Shown piece by piece: positions 40,840-47,545 of a stretch of DNA of 64,000 bases. The notes beneath the pieces were generated by a model, which saw only the letters and a list, made by a program, of their open reading frames with translations, was not told the origin of the DNA and searched no databases. Each line of letters begins with the position of its first letter. Position 1 is the stretch's first letter. The stretch lies in the NCBI RefSeq assembly GCF_900112335.1, contig NZ_FOLG01000011.1, positions 62,001 through 126,000 of the forward strand, read 5' to 3'. Origin of the DNA: Tropicimonas isoalkanivorans (GTDB lineage Bacteria > Pseudomonadota > Alphaproteobacteria > Rhodobacterales > Rhodobacteraceae). A program made the translations under genes and the position numbers.

Positions 40840-41988
40840 TTGGGAAACGGGATCAAGCACGTGGCACGGACATCTAAAGGCCCGGATCGCGATACGACAA
40901 ACGAATTCGCCCGCCTCGATGCGTTCATAGGTTCGTACATGACGCCCCACGGCGGGGATGCCGCCCTTCCCGGCCCCGAACTCGGCCCATTCCTTAAGCG
41001 TGTCCGATACCACGGGGTGCAGGGCATCCTGAATGCCACGCCATCCTTCCAGGCCGCAGCCGGACCGGACCTGGCAGGCGCCGTCTCCCGGATGGCTATG
41101 GCCGATGCCGTGCACGAAGAGGTCCACCGCACCCTTTTGCGCGAGGTGTTCGACGCATTCGCTGCGGCTGAAATCCCATTTCTGGTCCTCAAGGGCACAG
41201 CAGTGGCTTACCTGTTCCACGAGGACCCGGCGGCGCGCCCGCGCTGCGATACGGACCTCTTCGTGCCGGAGGATCGCCTGTCAGATGCCGAAAGCTGTCT
41301 GGCAAGCCTCGGCTTCCAAACCTCGCCGGTCTACGCGCCGGTCTATCAGCACACGCACGCGATCACCCGCCACGGCATGAGCCTCGAGATCGACCTCCAC
41401 TGGCGCGCCGCCAATTCCGAGGTCATCAGCCGCGCCTTTGAGTTCGACCCGATGCTGGCGGACAGCCAGCCGGTCCCCCGGCTTCACCCGGCCGCTCGCG
41501 CGCCGTCCTCCGCCGATCTGCTGTGCTTCGCGATCATGCACATGGCGCTCGATCAGGCGCACCGGAGTGGCGCGCGGATGATCTGGCTCGACGACATGGC
41601 ACTCATTGCCCGGCGCCTCGGCGAAGCGGGCTGGGCGTCCTTCCTGCGCGGCGTGGAAGTACGGGGGCTTGCCGGGGTCGCGCGATCCAGCCTGAATAAG
41701 GTCGAAGCCAAGTTTGGCGGCTTGGTTCCGCAGCCCGTCACCGCCACGTTGAACACATTGCCCAACGGCGCGCTCTCCGACTACCTTTCGGCATCCCGCA
41801 CACAGCGCTTCCGCCAGGAACTGGCGATCCGGCCGCCCGCCGACGCGCTTCGTTTCCTCTGGCAGGTCGTCCTGCCCGACCGCGCACGCCTCGCCGCGAA
41901 ATATGGTGCCGCGCCGGCATGGAAGGTACCGTGGCTCTATGCGCGCCGTGCGGTGTCGGGCCTGCGCCAGTGGAGACTGATGCGATGA
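40840..41988 (+). CDS. Nucleotidyltransferase-family protein (NTP_transf_5) of lasso-peptide cluster
   Basis: This ~382-residue protein uses a TTG start at 40840 (site aaggg); GTG 40861 is an alternative. The central region FLVLKGTAVAYLFHEDPAAR followed by PRCDTDLFVPEDRL gives Lys118-Gly and the D137-x-D139 pair of the NTP_transf_5 family. The later LEIDLHWRAA and LLCFAIMHMALDQAH blocks also fit. In other lasso clusters with a kinase, this family is a tailoring enzyme that extends the phosphorylated peptide. Its stop overlaps the ABC gene start (ATGA). The donor and acceptor here are unknown. Confidence 0.82.
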   Translation: MGNGIKHVARTSKGPDRDTTNEFARLDAFIGSYMTPHGGDAALPGPELGPFLKRVRYHGVQGILNATPSFQAAAGPDLAGAVSRMAMADAVHEEVHRTLLREVFDAFAAAEIPFLVLKGTAVAYLFHEDPAARPRCDTDLFVPEDRLSDAESCLASLGFQTSPVYAPVYQHTHAITRHGMSLEIDLHWRAANSEVISRAFEFDPMLADSQPVPRLHPAARAPSSADLLCFAIMHMALDQAHRSGARMIWLDDMALIARRLGEAGWASFLRGVEVRGLAGVARSSLNKVEAKFGGLVPQPVTATLNTLPNGALSDYLSASRTQRFRQELAIRPPADALRFLWQVVLPDRARLAAKYGAAPAWKVPWLYARRAVSGLRQWRLMR

Positions 41989-43661
41989 AGGCGCTTGCCC
42001 TACGGCTCCTGCGCCCGCGCGCAGGGCAGTTCCTTCTGGTCGCTTTGCTTATCGCTTCAGGAAGTCTCGCTGGTCTGGCACTCCCGCTGGCGGCGGGGCG
42101 GATCGTGGCGGGGCTGGTGGGTGACGCGGTCGAGGTATCCCCCGCGCTGCTGCTGGCCACCTTGGCATTTCTCGCCGTGCAGAATGGCCTGACCTACCTC
42201 AGCAATGTCCGCTCGGAGCGGCTCGCGACGCACGTATTGGCGGAACTCCGACGCACCGTTTACGCCCACGTGCAGCGCCTGCCGTTGGACTTCCATGAGA
42301 GCCGGCCCCGCGGCGCAACGATGTCGGTCCTCGTCCGGGATGTGGACTTCGTCGGCCAGTTCATGACCAGCTTTGCGGTCTCGATGGTGCCGCTTCTGGT
42401 GACCCTCGCTGGGGCGTCGGTCGCCATGCTGAGCCTCGATGTGGCCTTGGCGCTGCCGATTCTGGTCGTCATTCCGGTGGCCATTATCGCCTTCAGATTG
42501 TTGGCACGGCATTTCCGGCCACTCTCGCTTGAACTCCGGGATGCCGAGGGGCAGGTCCTCGACCGGTTGGAAGAGACCATCGGAATGATCCGCACGATCA
42601 AGTCCTTCGGCCGAGAGCCGCTGGAGGATCTGCGGTTCGCCGAGGCCGTGGCCGATGCCCGCGACCTGCGCTGCCGGCTCGAACATCGGGAAGCGGCGCT
42701 CCGGCCCGCGATCCAGTTCCTGTCAGGAGCTGCGGTGCTTCTGCTCTTCTGGGCGATTGGCGCGCGTCTGTCCGGCTCCGGCCTGTCCACATCCGAATGG
42801 ACGGCGTTGCTGCTCTATTCCGGGATGATCATCCGTCCGCTGAGCGGTTTGGCGGGGTCCTGGGGCATGGTTCAGATTGCACGGGGCAGCGTTGCGCGGC
42901 TCGACGACGTCCTCAGGCTCGCGCCCGAAGACCTGCCGCCGGATTGGGCGGAGACGCCAAGGCTGACCGGAGAGATCTCGTTTCTCGATGTGGGGTTCTG
43001 TTACCCGAACGGCACGAGAGTCCTCGATGAGGTCAGCTTCACGATCCGCGAGGGCACCGTGGCCGGCCTGCTGGGCCGCAACGGCGCCGGAAAGAGCACC
43101 GTTCTGAAGCTGATCGAGGGCCTCTATCTCCCCTCCGACGGCACCGTTCTGGTCGGCGGGCAGCCGACCTCCGAGCAGGATCTCACGGTCCTCCGGCGGA
43201 ACGTGATCGTCGTCTCTCAACAGGTCCAACTGGTGGACGGATCCGTCCGGGACAACATCGCCTACGGCCGCCCCGATGCTCCCGAGGAGGCCGTGATTGC
43301 CGCCGCCCGGCGCGCCTTGGCACATGACTTCATCCAATCTCTTGATAGGGGCTATGAGACCGCGATTGGCGAGAACGGCGTGCGGCTCTCCGGTGGGCAG
43401 CGGCAACGCCTCGCGCTCGCGCGTGCGCTTCTGTGCGATCCGCCGATCCTTCTGCTCGACGAGGCAACAGCCATGTTCGACCTCGAAGGTGAAGACGCGT
43501 TCTTTTCGACCTGCGCGGAGGCTTTTGCCGGCCGGACAGTCATCATCGTCGGCCATACGCCCAAGGTATTCGACGCCGTCGACCTTTGCCTCACTGTGGA
43601 GAATGGCCACGTCTTCTCCTCGGACCTGCCGCAGGAACGGAAAGCGCATGCGGGGGAGTGA
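41985..43661 (+). CDS. ABC exporter (fused permease and ATPase) of lasso-peptide cluster
   Basis: This 558-residue half-transporter has six membrane segments in residues ~15-290 (FLLVALLIASGSLAGLALPL onward). Its ATPase domain has Walker A LLGRNGAGKST, signature VRLSGGQRQRLALARALL, Walker B ILLLDEATAMFD, and the switch region VIIVGHTPKVFD. It has the type IV exporter layout seen in RiPP clusters (McjD-like) and should export the mature lasso peptide and give self-immunity. It overlaps both neighbours (4 and 14 bases), so the three plus-strand genes are one translationally coupled operon. Confidence 0.92.
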   Translation: MKALALRLLRPRAGQFLLVALLIASGSLAGLALPLAAGRIVAGLVGDAVEVSPALLLATLAFLAVQNGLTYLSNVRSERLATHVLAELRRTVYAHVQRLPLDFHESRPRGATMSVLVRDVDFVGQFMTSFAVSMVPLLVTLAGASVAMLSLDVALALPILVVIPVAIIAFRLLARHFRPLSLELRDAEGQVLDRLEETIGMIRTIKSFGREPLEDLRFAEAVADARDLRCRLEHREAALRPAIQFLSGAAVLLLFWAIGARLSGSGLSTSEWTALLLYSGMIIRPLSGLAGSWGMVQIARGSVARLDDVLRLAPEDLPPDWAETPRLTGEISFLDVGFCYPNGTRVLDEVSFTIREGTVAGLLGRNGAGKSTVLKLIEGLYLPSDGTVLVGGQPTSEQDLTVLRRNVIVVSQQVQLVDGSVRDNIAYGRPDAPEEAVIAAARRALAHDFIQSLDRGYETAIGENGVRLSGGQRQRLALARALLCDPPILLLDEATAMFDLEGEDAFFSTCAEAFAGRTVIIVGHTPKVFDAVDLCLTVENGHVFSSDLPQERKAHAGE

Positions 43662-44118
43662 TTTCCTTCGGTTCCTGCTCACGCTCGACGGTCCGCACCG
43701 CCGGCTGGCGGCGGAGGCGTCGGTCGGCCTGCCCCGCCTGCAGCGGCGCATCAAGATTGACGGGCTGAGCAAAACGCTGTCCGCGCCCACCTATCCCATG
43801 TCGACGCCAGTTTTGCCGGAATACGATGTCCTCACCGGTTATGGGGCGGTCGTGAACAGAGTGGCCGGGATGCGCCTTGTCCGGGCCACCTGCCTCACCC
43901 GCTCGGTTTTCCTGCAACGCTGGCTCAGATCGCGGAATACCGAGACCACGCTCCGGATTGGCATTCGCACTTCGGAGGGGCCATTCGCGGCCCACGCCTG
44001 GCTCGAAGCGGACGGTCGGCCGATCAACGATACGGCCGAAAATGTCGCTCGCTACGAGCCGATTGCGGACGTGGCGCTTGCCGATGGGGCGCTATTTCGT
44101 GCTGCTGACGTCGGGTAG
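43648..44118 (+). CDS. Lasso-peptide leader peptidase B2 (transglutaminase-like Cys protease)
   Basis: This 156-residue protein starts at ATG 43648 inside the ABC gene. It shows the B2/McjB catalytic fold: Cys82 in RATCLTRSVFLQRWL, His116 in FAAHAWLEADG and Asp128 in PINDTAENV, a Cys-His-Asp triad. It cuts the leader from the precursor after the penultimate Thr position, letting the cyclase close the ring. It lacks the recognition domain, which is a separate protein encoded on the opposite strand 16 bases away. This split B1/B2 layout differs from the fused McjB of microcin J25. Confidence 0.9.
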   Translation: MRGSDFLRFLLTLDGPHRRLAAEASVGLPRLQRRIKIDGLSKTLSAPTYPMSTPVLPEYDVLTGYGAVVNRVAGMRLVRATCLTRSVFLQRWLRSRNTETTLRIGIRTSEGPFAAHAWLEADGRPINDTAENVARYEPIADVALADGALFRAADVG

Positions 44119-44134
44119 AGGCAGACCGGACGCT

Positions 44135-44422
44135 TCAGCCCGCAGGCTCGATCAAACCGCGCTCGCGAAGCTCGGAAACGAGGGCCTCCAGGTCCGAACG
44201 CACGTCGGCCTGGGCGACGTCGAATTCCGCCGCGACGGTGCTGATGATGGCACCCACTGTACTGCCGTCCGCGAAAAGGCTCCAGATGAAGGCACCGCTT
44301 CGGTTTAGGCCGAAATACCGGTCGGAGTTCAGGTCGAGGATCACCATTTCCTCGCCCACCGTCCGCGGAAGGACGTTCTGAGGCACCCGAAACCGATCGT
44401 CGTCGTCCAAACCAACCGTCAT
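44135..44422 (-). CDS. PqqD-like RiPP recognition protein B1 of lasso cluster
   Basis: This 95-residue PqqD-family protein begins with a beta-hairpin (RFRVPQNVLPRTVGEEMVIL, DLNSDRYFGLNRSGAFIWSL), followed by three helices (VGAIISTVAAEFDVAQADVR, DLEALVSELRERGLI). This is the RiPP recognition element (RRE) that binds the Y-x2-P-x-L leader motif and presents the precursor to the B2 protease. ATG 44422 has a gggag site; GTG 44431 is possible but poorly spaced. It is last of the minus-strand genes, 25 bases after the kinase, converging with B2. Confidence 0.88.
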   Translation of the reverse strand: MTVGLDDDDRFRVPQNVLPRTVGEEMVILDLNSDRYFGLNRSGAFIWSLFADGSTVGAIISTVAAEFDVAQADVRSDLEALVSELRERGLIEPAG

Positions 44423-44447
44423 TGCCCGCACTCCCTAAATACTCGTA

Positions 44448-45392
44448 TCACGGCGCCCGTCCCGCCAAACTGTCCATGTGTCGTGTCTCCAGGTGGTCTA
44501 TCACCTTCGGGAGGCAGTCGAAACGGCGCGGATAGGACAAGGTGAACACGGGCACCCGGGCGGCGATCTCGGCACAACTCCCGATGAGCCACGCCTTCCA
44601 GTCGGCCGACCAGAGGTCGATCCCGAAACTGTTGCGCACGAGATGTCCGCAAGCCTCTGCGGGCGACAGGCGTAGGCTTTTTATCTCGTCGCCAGAGTCC
44701 TGTGCGGGCTGCAAAACGTAGATCGCGTCGAGCGGTCCGGCCTCCGCCGCGGCGTCGCCATCCAGATCCACCCGAAGCTTGCCCGGTGGACCGGCCTCCC
44801 CCGAGACAATCCCATCCTCAGCGAACATCGCCTCGAAGGTCTGCGGCCAAACCCGAAGAGAGGCCGAGAGCCCTCTTGCGATGACGCCATCGGCCAGCGG
44901 CGTCAGCGTCAGACAGTCGTCTGTCAGCAACGCATGCCCCGCCCGCATCATCGCAGCGGCGAGCGTGGACTTGCCCTGCCCGGACCGCCCGCAAAAGGCA
45001 ACCGCCGCCCCACCGAGCCGCACGGCAGACATGTGCAGTGTCGCGATACGTTCGTGCGACAGGATACGAGGAATGATGTCGTCGGAGACCAAGTGGTCGA
45101 GGGCTGCCGGGCTATGCCGAAAGTGATCGGGCATCCGGACATGTCGGGACCAAGTATCGAGGACGAAGCGCAGCACGTCACCATCCCAGCATGAAATTGG
45201 CTCCGTCGCTCCTTTATGAGCGGCCTCGGCGGTGATCTCATGCCGACGAAAGGAAAAGTCCGTTGCCGGGTGCGTTACCCGGGCCACCTCGGCTCCGATC
45301 TGGCCAGGATCGCAATCAAATCCGAAAGACCAGCCTGCCAAAGGCTCCCGATAGGGTGCGGTCCCCACAATTAGATCCTGAATTTGCGGCAT
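44448..45392 (-). CDS. HprK-like kinase, predicted lasso-peptide tailoring enzyme
   Basis: This 314-residue protein has Walker A GRSGQGKST at residues 135-143 (VAFCGRSGQGKSTLAAAMMR) and the following LLTDDCLTL acidic motif, as in the HPr kinase C-terminal domain. The N-terminal ~120 residues are specific to the RiPP-associated group. In paeninodin-type clusters this family phosphorylates the lasso peptide on its C-terminal Ser. Here it lies between the precursor and B1 genes, so a tailoring role is likely. The predicted core ends in Val, so the target residue must differ. Confidence 0.82.
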   Translation of the reverse strand: MPQIQDLIVGTAPYREPLAGWSFGFDCDPGQIGAEVARVTHPATDFSFRRHEITAEAAHKGATEPISCWDGDVLRFVLDTWSRHVRMPDHFRHSPAALDHLVSDDIIPRILSHERIATLHMSAVRLGGAAVAFCGRSGQGKSTLAAAMMRAGHALLTDDCLTLTPLADGVIARGLSASLRVWPQTFEAMFAEDGIVSGEAGPPGKLRVDLDGDAAAEAGPLDAIYVLQPAQDSGDEIKSLRLSPAEACGHLVRNSFGIDLWSADWKAWLIGSCAEIAARVPVFTLSYPRRFDCLPKVIDHLETRHMDSLAGRAP

Positions 45393-45421
45393 GACGATAC
45401 ACTCGCCCCATCGGCGCGGCA

Positions 45422-45437
45422 GGAGCCCTCCGGCTCC
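45422..45437 (-). promoter_or_regulatory. Stem-loop between lasso precursor and kinase genes
   Basis: GGAGCC-ctcc-GGCTCC, a 6-bp perfect stem in the 95-base gap between precursor and kinase. With the nearer hairpin it could lower downstream expression relative to the precursor. The structure is seen; the effect is inferred. Confidence 0.35.
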
Positions 45438-45470
45438 GGCGGCGCTAAACCAAGCTCGTTACGCGCCGCA

Positions 45471-45486
45471 GATGCTTTCAAGCATC
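45471..45486 (-). promoter_or_regulatory. Stem-loop directly after the lasso precursor gene
   Basis: A perfect 7-bp stem GATGCTT-tc-AAGCATC starts 2 bases after the precursor stop. Precursor genes of RiPPs are often followed by such hairpins, which stabilise the 5' mRNA and partially terminate transcription. There is no T-run, so full termination is not expected. Confidence 0.5.
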
Positions 45487-45487
45487 T

Positions 45488-45664
45488 TCAGACGTTGGGC
45501 CTTCTGATGGTCTGATCGTCCGCACCACTATTTTCCCTGTTTCCGGCCGACCCTGCGAGCGTCAACTCGGACAATCCGCCCAGTTCGCTCAGTCTCGGCG
45601 CCTGGTAAGCTTTGAGGGAGCTTACGTCGTCAGACGATGCCGTCGTCACAAATCCATTATTCAT
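45488..45664 (-). CDS. Lasso-peptide precursor (58 residues)
   Basis: A short minus-strand gene between the cyclase (39-base gap) and kinase genes, start ATG 45664. Leader residues 20-35 read YQAPRLSELGGLSELT, matching the lasso motif Y-x2-P-x-L-x3-G-x5-T at every fixed position. With Thr35 as penultimate leader residue, cleavage falls after Leu36. The core is then Ala37 to Val58 (22 residues), starting AGSAGNREN. Core Glu8 can form the ring with Ala1, an 8-residue macrolactam. The tail ends TIRRPNV. Starting at Gly38 instead would give a 7-residue ring. The motif and gene context are observed; the product structure is predicted. Confidence 0.9.
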   Translation of the reverse strand: MNNGFVTTASSDDVSSLKAYQAPRLSELGGLSELTLAGSAGNRENSGADDQTIRRPNV

Positions 45665-45703
45665 GTCAGACCCGATTAGCCAATAATGCAGTCTCGTTAA
45701 CCT

Positions 45704-47545
45704 TTAGACACGTTCTAGAAATTTCTCAAGTGTCAAGGCCATTAAGGTATGGTTTTCCGCTGACGACCCGGCGGGCGGCTTCATGTATTCTCTGACGGAC
45801 AGCCGCGCGGCCTGAACACGATCTTTGGGAATGGCCTCTTCCAGAGCATTGTTGAACCGCCGACCGACGTGCTGGAACCCCCGGCGCCACCTGAGGTCCT
45901 CGGGCATCCTATCCGCCATTGCCCGGCGAACGATGTGTTTCGGCCACCCGCGCCGGCGTTTCTGGTCGTCTGGCAAACCGATGCAGAACTCCACGAGGCG
46001 CCTGTCCGTATATGGGTCGCGGCATTCGATGCCCCAGGCTGCCGCGATGCGGTCGTATCCTTCCCGAGCTGATGAAATGAAGGGAAAGACCATTGTCGCC
46101 ATCGCTTCGGCTTCCCTGTCGTAGGGAGTCCGCCGTTCCAGTGATGCCCGCATCGCGCGTATGCGGCCGATGGCGTCGACGCGTTTTGCAAAAACCGGGT
46201 CGATGGTCGACCGGGCAATGATCTCGGCCGGGGCGTGCCGGTTCCAATGCGCGCTTCGAAGATGCCTCACCGCGGACGGCATGAGGACGCGCCGTACGAC
46301 GCGGCCGAATTTGAGTGCCCCACTCAACGAGGATTGCCGAGCGAAATCCGCTTCGCCGATGCAATCCCGGTAGGCCGTCAATACGTGCCCTGATCGGACC
46401 AACCGCAAGATCATCGAGCCTGTGGAGGTCACCACATCGCCCATCACGCCATCCAGCATGACCGAAACGCCATGATCCGCGGCGGTTCGGTAGACCTGCC
46501 GCGGCATGGTGGCCGTGAAGTTGAAGGGTTCCTCCGTCTTAAGCAGGTCCGCCAGCGCCTGGTTCGCATGTCGGGATACATCCGTGAGCGGCACGTCAAC
46601 CGGCTGCAATCCGCAGGTCTCCTGATTGCGCCTGATCATGGCCGTCTCGATGAACGTCGGGTCGTCCGTCACGCCCGAAAATGTCCGGAGTGGCGGTCGT
46701 CCGGCCGACAACACAGCCGCCGCCGCCACGGAGCCAGAGTCCAGCCCGCCGCTGAGCATGATCCCACCCGGCTTCGACATTCGTAAGCGACATCGGACGG
46801 CCTCATCGAAGACCTCGAGGAAGTGGGCCTCGTAATCCCCATCGCTTGTCTTGTCGCTGTGGGACAGCGCCGTCGGCTGCCAGTATCGCGATAGGTCCAC
46901 GGTATGGGACGAAACGATCATCCGGTGCCCGGGCGGGAGACGGTAGACGTCTTGCCAGAACGTGGATTCGTGGTCGATCCCTTCCAGCGGGATCTGATCG
47001 TCGAGGAGGAAATCCGCGATCCGTGGTTCATACAGTTTCCGCGGGACCATCGGCGCGGCGACCACCGACATCGGCGTGGAGCCGAACACGAACCAGCCGT
47101 CGTTTGCGAAATAGGCAAAGGGCTTCATGCCCATGTGGTCGCGCGCGGCAAAGAGGGTCTGGTCCCGTGGATCCCAGATCGCGAAGGCAAAATCGCCCAG
47201 CAAGTGGTCCACACAGTCGCGCCCCCATTTGAGGTACGCCAGAAGTGTCAGTTCCGCGTCCGAGGCCGGATGGCGGCAGTCCAATGCCGTCAGCAGTTCC
47301 TCGCGGTTATCGAGGCGTATGTCGGCGGTGAGTGTGCAGCCGGTCGGAGGATGGCGGAGCGGCTGCTCGTCGCGCACGGCGTCAGGCGTGGTCAGGTTGT
47401 GTCCGTTGCCGAGGGCGGCCGCGCCGTCAACAAAATACCGCGTGCCGTCCGGTGCGCGCGTGGCGAGGTCCTTCGCCATCGGCACGAGGCTTTCGCGCGA
47501 GACCACCCCACCCCGGCGGTTCAGGAGGCCGAAGATTGCGCCCAT
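45704..47545 (-). CDS. Asparagine-synthetase-like lasso cyclase (C protein)
   Basis: This 613-residue homologue of AsnB has an N-terminal Ntn-type domain (GAIFGLLNRRGG, LLGDFAFAIWDPRDQTLFAA) and a C-terminal PP-loop domain with MLSGGLDSGSVAA at residues 263-275. Position 2 is Gly instead of the catalytic Cys, so it cannot hydrolyse glutamine. This fits lasso cyclases, which adenylate the Asp/Glu side chain of the core and let the N-terminus attack. It is directly upstream of the precursor gene on the same strand and starts 73 bases after malate synthase. Confidence 0.9.
   Translation of the reverse strand: MGAIFGLLNRRGGVVSRESLVPMAKDLATRAPDGTRYFVDGAAALGNGHNLTTPDAVRDEQPLRHPPTGCTLTADIRLDNREELLTALDCRHPASDAELTLLAYLKWGRDCVDHLLGDFAFAIWDPRDQTLFAARDHMGMKPFAYFANDGWFVFGSTPMSVVAAPMVPRKLYEPRIADFLLDDQIPLEGIDHESTFWQDVYRLPPGHRMIVSSHTVDLSRYWQPTALSHSDKTSDGDYEAHFLEVFDEAVRCRLRMSKPGGIMLSGGLDSGSVAAAAVLSAGRPPLRTFSGVTDDPTFIETAMIRRNQETCGLQPVDVPLTDVSRHANQALADLLKTEEPFNFTATMPRQVYRTAADHGVSVMLDGVMGDVVTSTGSMILRLVRSGHVLTAYRDCIGEADFARQSSLSGALKFGRVVRRVLMPSAVRHLRSAHWNRHAPAEIIARSTIDPVFAKRVDAIGRIRAMRASLERRTPYDREAEAMATMVFPFISSAREGYDRIAAAWGIECRDPYTDRRLVEFCIGLPDDQKRRRGWPKHIVRRAMADRMPEDLRWRRGFQHVGRRFNNALEEAIPKDRVQAARLSVREYMKPPAGSSAENHTLMALTLEKFLERV

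Follow-up and report, generated by a model that had tools for sequence, protein, structure and literature searches.

The locus studied here, in a 64,000-nucleotide stretch of DNA from Tropicimonas isoalkanivorans (hereafter, the window), raises the question of which residue a lasso-peptide kinase modifies when the precursor does not end in Ser, and what job the accompanying nucleotidyltransferase has. Seven genes at 40840–47545 lie in the order N, ABC exporter, B2, B1, K, A and C and form two convergent runs. The initial annotation had read them as a lasso pathway with a kinase and a nucleotidyltransferase; all seven genes it named are present in this interval, and the family evidence bears out its call. 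The genes are as follows.

40840–41988, + strand: N, NTP_transf_5 nucleotidyltransferase, 382 aa from TTG 40840 (PF14907, 102.8 bits, cut-off 31.2)
41985–43661, + strand: D, ABC exporter, a permease–ATPase fusion, 558 aa (above cut-off for PF00005 and PF00664)
43648–44118, + strand: B2, leader peptidase, 156 aa (PF13471, 81.4 bits, cut-off 26; NF033537, 76.6 bits, cut-off 33)
44135–44422, − strand: B1, PqqD-type leader-binding protein, 95 aa (PF05402, 72.4 bits, cut-off 23.4)
44448–45392, − strand: K, HprK-like peptide kinase, 314 aa, which groups with kinases of ring-Ser3 clusters
45488–45664, − strand: A, precursor, 58 aa (NF033521 lasso_leader_L3, 23.8 bits, cut-off 19)
45704–47545, − strand: C, asparagine-synthetase-like macrolactam cyclase, 613 aa (NF033535, 402 bits, cut-off 525)

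On the plus strand, the order is N, D and B2, with neighbors overlapping by a few bases, and on the minus strand the genes are transcribed in the order C, A, K and B1. The start of N is uncertain because a second candidate, ATG 40939, lies downstream of TTG 40840. The cluster is flanked by what we take, from their translations, to be katG and malate synthase G, and its GC content is 0.641 versus 0.646 for the window. The idea that the cluster inserted recently between the katG and malate synthase genes was considered and set aside: katG is present in three congeners, malate synthase was not found in 16–18 kb around it, and an empty site is therefore lacking for comparison. A small hairpin (GATGCT-TGAA-AGCATC, about 45470–45487, minus strand) stands immediately past the stop codon of A and could separate the expression of A from that of K. 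Scanning for promoters and terminators gave hits not above those in shuffled sequence, with one promoter-like site against 1.0 expected by chance.

Precursor A has the leader register Tyr(-17), Pro(-14), Leu(-12) and Thr(-2), and it shares the YxxPxL leader, Thr(-2) and an acidic residue within core positions 7–9 with lasso precursors. Its 22-residue core is AGSAGNRENSGADDQTIRRPNV, composed of the ring AGSAGNRE (Ala1–Glu8) and the tail NSGADDQTIRRPNV; the C-terminus is Val, and the tail hydroxyls are Ser10 and Thr16. The calculated monoisotopic neutral mass of this core is 2284.090 as the linear peptide and 2266.080 as the macrolactam, and would be 2346.046 with an added phosphate and 2508.099 with a phosphate and a hexose. 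A profile built from the leaders and first eight core residues of 28 relatives, with the window left out, ranked A first of 1215 window ORFs (E 4.5e-9; next 0.22), so its detection is not due to chance. A core-only matrix of eight residues placed the ring 91st of 106950 sequence windows; the gene is found by its leader, not by the ring motif alone. Neither a second precursor nor a Ser-ending extension was seen in the three minus-strand frames of 45381–45720.

The closest known system is the bsf cluster of Bradymonas sediminis FA350, which has the genes A, B1, B2, C, D, K and N (Duan 2023, PMC10368454). According to the excerpts of that study used here, BsfK phosphorylates core Ser3, as determined by MS/MS and an S3A variant; B1 accelerates the reaction, S3T is accepted, and BsfK does not act on the core by itself. 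BsfA carries Tyr(-17), Pro(-14) and Leu(-12), its ring is closed at residue 8, and an Ile(-2) leader is reported for Bradymonadales. The same excerpts state that no mature bsf peptide was ever observed, and they leave the role of BsfN open (PMC10368454). The two clusters are alike in the seven-gene set, the leader residues at -17, -14 and -12, ring closure at residue 8, Ser3 and the absence of a C-terminal Ser. They differ in that bsf has Ile(-2), Gly1 and Asp8, whereas the window has Thr(-2), Ala1 and Glu8, and the window genes are arranged in two convergent runs, unlike those of bsf, which comes from a distant taxon. The window cluster thus appears to work like bsf, yet it falls outside the Ile(-2) group because its leader has Thr(-2). 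The new lasso peptide that had been predicted stands as a new member; the seven-gene set itself was already published as bsf.

Other kinase-bearing systems fit less well. Pseudomycoidin and paeninodin share lasso biosynthesis and an HprK-like kinase with the window, and pseudomycoidin also has a nucleotidyltransferase; in the parts of the reviews drawn on, paeninodin-type kinases use a conserved C-terminal Ser, and PsmN has been connected with the hexoses that pseudomycoidin carries on its phosphate (PMC9266682, PMC8498205). The phosphate in both peptides is on the C-terminal Ser, whereas the window core ends in Val, which rules out a cluster of the C-terminal-Ser kind. The linear polyphosphorylated peptides (LPP) share an RRE, an HprK-like kinase acting on S3, an NTP transferase and an exporter with the window; as far as the excerpted text goes, S3T failed with LppK and LppN was inactive (PMC13381572). 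LPP clusters are described there as having no macrolactam cyclase and using an SpI-type peptidase (PMC13381572), and the cyclase-like protein of the window rules out this class.

Profile searches on the three leader-processing and ring-closing proteins placed B1 and B2 above cut-off; C has NF033535 as its top NCBIfam match but remains under the curated cut-off. B1 matches the solved TbiB1 (E 3.8e-9) and TfuB1 (2.6e-7), in agreement with the PqqD fold proposed earlier. Residue columns were counted over rows that take in the window's own ORF plus one contig fetched twice. In B2, Cys82 is kept in 66/67 and His116 in 67/67 rows; Asp128 occurs in only 2/67, the window's own included, and Gly in 64. 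Two residues of the triad in the initial annotation, Cys82 and His116, are thus upheld, and Asp128 as its third member is unsupported because it is kept in so few rows. C also exceeds the cut-offs of PF00733 and PF13537 and is 43 and 42% identical to two related cyclases. Its PP-loop is intact, as claimed, with SGGxDS in 93/95 rows (2 gaps), and the missing Cys of the initial annotation corresponds to residue 5, which is Phe in the window protein (MGAIF) and Cys in two aligned relatives (MSGIC), with Cys in 20/95 rows overall.

K scores 23.4 bits with PF07475 (cut-off 33.3), 35.6 with TIGR04352 (cut-off 200) and 25.2 with TIGR00679 (cut-off 240). An HPr kinase proper was rejected, as neither PF07475 nor TIGR00679 reaches its cut-off, and by its profile scores K appears to be only HprK-like. 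His120, Lys141 and Ser142 are present in 77/77 rows and Asp158 and Asp159 in 74/77 (3 gaps); the His, Lys, Ser and Asp-Asp residues on which BsfK depends thus have counterparts in K.

Relatives were collected by scanning genome_contigs with three cyclases, which gave 461 pattern matches, 208 of them confirmed; the best 80 of the 208 were kept and represent 78 distinct loci. With the window and two family genomes, these make 81 stretches. Among the matches listed, all six enzyme families occur in 51/81 stretches and C together with K in 70/81, and the loci span Alpha- and Gammaproteobacteria, many Cyanobacteria, Acidobacteria, a Nitrospirota bin and archaeal bins. Within the window's family, 10/198 genomes match the window cyclase at 1e-30, and within its order 4/390 match the three-cyclase profile at 1e-80, the window's own genome included in both counts; the cluster is rare in its own family. 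Two of the 198 family genomes (L014, L015) hold clusters of the C-terminal-Ser kind. G505 (L100), of the same genus as the window, has a cyclase frame of 316 aa and K spread over two frames; N and a precursor were not recognized in 19 kb, and this is a degraded version of the window cluster.

Precursors in these stretches were picked by leader register plus an acidic residue at positions 7–9, leaving position 3 unconstrained; because the scoring favored Thr(-2), precursors with Ile(-2) or Val(-2) may have escaped detection. A proteobacterial group, chosen after the precursors were seen, comprises 29 precursors at 23 loci among the matches listed, one of them (L028) of an unnamed phylum. Three ORFs of group loci were removed, one for its low score and two because they sit inside another gene; the register of L052 was reset by hand; L012 and L013 were left out because they duplicate the contigs of L016 and L022; and no precursor came from three proteobacterial loci whose contigs are short or truncated (L031, L048, L061), which stand outside the 23. 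Core position 3 in this group is Ser in 22 and Thr in 7, that is, Ser or Thr in 29/29. Elsewhere in the ring, Gly2 is found in 28/29, Gly4 in 15/29 and Glu8 in 25/29, while positions 5–7 and the tails vary. Outside the group, after seven rows were dropped, 6/37 usable precursors have Ser/Thr3, most of the 37 with K in the same stretch (Fisher p 4e-13, ignoring relatedness). The C-terminal Ser was rejected as the target of K, since Val is the last residue of the window core and Ser-ending cores make up only 4/29 of the group; outside it, they number 9/37. A GSx(D/N) motif was also observed in the tail (residue 10 on) of 13/37 outside-group precursors, with cyanobacterial examples at L041, L060, L064, L083 and L086, and is possibly a third kinase site.

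Ser3 is not a universal rule. Seven Sphingomonadales-like precursors (L104, L120–L124, L188) break it: in the Tyr(-17) register they have Gly-Ser at positions 1–2, Ser/Thr3 is found in 3/7, and most of their clusters contain K. If B2 cut after Thr, these cores would read Gly-Gly-Ser. Precursors of the Ser2 type also appeared in an alphaproteobacterial control scan (L187, L188, L192, L193). A kinase-less control of 34 alphaproteobacterial stretches plus four earlier ones yielded a single recognized kinase-less precursor, L169, which has Ile at position 3. Four group precursors with no K in their stretch (L022, L034, L052, L089) retain Ser3. The genomes of these four have an HprK-like match elsewhere (best E 5.2e-24, 4.5e-32, 8.9e-14 and 2.5e-20, respectively), and that of L034 falls, by its coordinates, on the kinase gene of L037, another lasso cluster of that genome. 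Such matches outside the stretch fit the ring-Ser3 reading but are no proof of it, and in L022, L052 and L089 they could be other HprK-like proteins. The L022 stretch, from a Rubellimicrobium bin, has N, the ABC protein, C and A; K, B1 and B2 were not found in it.

A kinase tree was computed by a quick method from 51 rows thinned from 77. A branch with 97% SH-aLRT, weaker when long rows are included, has 18 group kinases together with L078 and L104 on one side, and the five labeled C-terminal-Ser kinases are all opposite the window's side. The precursor of L078 has Ser3, in agreement with the position of its kinase; the L104 kinase lies on the ring-Ser3 side although its precursor lacks the Ser3 pattern. 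The Ser3 rule is therefore not general even on the window's side of the tree, because L104 and its six relatives have Ser2. Window K itself is a long branch with a best identity of 30%. Judged from this tree, the kinase lineages appear to split largely, if roughly, as precursor Ser/Thr3 does.

The gene families, most catalytic residues, the precursor register, the conservation of Ser/Thr3 in the group and the kinase grouping are observed, and from them we infer all reaction steps, the threading and the job of N. It is likely that the cluster makes one lasso peptide by phosphorylation of Ser3 at the linear stage, perhaps extension by N, cleavage by B2, Glu8–Ala1 ring closure and export. B1 would bind the leader through Tyr(-17), Pro(-14) and Leu(-12), and K would phosphorylate core Ser3 while the precursor is still linear. 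N may extend this phosphate by a sugar or nucleotidyl group. B2 would then cut the leader off after Thr(-2)-Leu(-1), and C would activate Glu8 and couple it to the Ala1 amino group, giving an eight-residue ring around the tail, after which the ABC protein would export the product. The Ser3 mechanism is carried over rather than discovered here, since it follows from homology to bsf and the conserved position.

Three other readings were weighed against this pathway. The cluster may be silent or decaying in this strain, as the degraded version in the congener G505 and the chance-level promoter-like sites would allow; none of the seven frames is interrupted and the key residues persist, and we regard silence or decay as unlikely. 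K could instead modify Ser10 or Thr16 of the tail rather than ring Ser3, in the manner of known C-terminal-Ser kinases, which act on the tail (PMC9266682, PMC8498205, as excerpted). However, 3/29 group tails (residue 9 on) lack both Ser and Thr while Ser/Thr3 is invariant, and BsfK, in the excerpted results, still phosphorylated S10A and T11A precursors but not S3A (PMC10368454), which makes a tail target improbable. Least probable, and in our judgment very unlikely, is that Ser/Thr3 is kept for ring folding or cyclase recognition while K has its target at another position or in a different protein, a view favored by the general constraint on the ring implied by Gly2 and Glu8 and by the four K-less precursors with Ser3, but opposed by the scarcity of Ser/Thr3 outside the group, where K is mostly nearby, and by the excerpted BsfK biochemistry (PMC10368454). 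Phosphorylation of ring Ser3 thus remains the preferred reading, and the window holds a real and complete lasso cluster of the type with a ring-Ser3 kinase, one that is probably functional.

Several related arrangements were observed during the survey. The window's own genome has a second NTP_transf_5 gene (L127, C15; 95 bits) near an ABC protein, an HprK-like kinase (28.1 bits, below the cut-off of 33.3) and a neighbor that by eye resembles a polysaccharide chain-length protein; a lasso cyclase was not found in 16 kb. An arginine-methyltransferase-like gene adjoins K at L018:11569-12795, L038:12123-13268 and L104:10831-11958, with PRMT_C above cut-off in all three, and similar ORFs were recognized by eye in L021, L023, L024 and L029; no such gene was seen in the window cluster. 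At L104:10431-10787 (G846), a lasso-type leader and short core form one fusion with a chaperone domain, Peptidase_S74 (PF13884, 33.8 bits, cut-off 22), with relatives in G1078 (L120) and G668 (L121). Matches occur in 6/296 genomes searched; the S74 part is present in three (two by eye), and the other three have this leader and core but lack it. SDxRxK is retained by each of the S74-bearing genomes. Lasso enzymes adjoin the fusion in L104 and G1078 and were not found in 18 kb around it in G668. Among the literature matches listed for the S74 fusion, lasso peptides are not mentioned.

Such gene sets are already known, so the window cluster is a further member and not a new system. No description of ring-Ser3 lasso peptides of Rhodobacterales was recognized among the literature matches listed, a scope that takes in few subscription journals. 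As far as these searches reach, what is added to print is Ser/Thr3 across 29 proteobacterial Thr(-2) precursors, its rough match to kinase lineage and the limiting Ser2 exceptions. Together, these suggest a sequence rule for the target of the lasso kinase in this group, namely ring Ser/Thr3 and not the C-terminal Ser. The window cluster also offers a compact system for the job of the NTP_transf_5 partner, which is unsolved in bsf and was inactive in the LPP study. It is possible, if on balance somewhat doubtful, that these precursors represent a large, hardly described proteobacterial group with Thr(-2) leaders and X-Gly-Ser/Thr-x4-Glu rings, in which ring Ser/Thr3 receives a phosphate that NTP_transf_5, a protein of MenT/ANT/FKRP-like fold, then caps. 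If this is true, capped Ser/Thr3 would give a lasso peptide with a phosphodiester head group on the ring, not on the tail.
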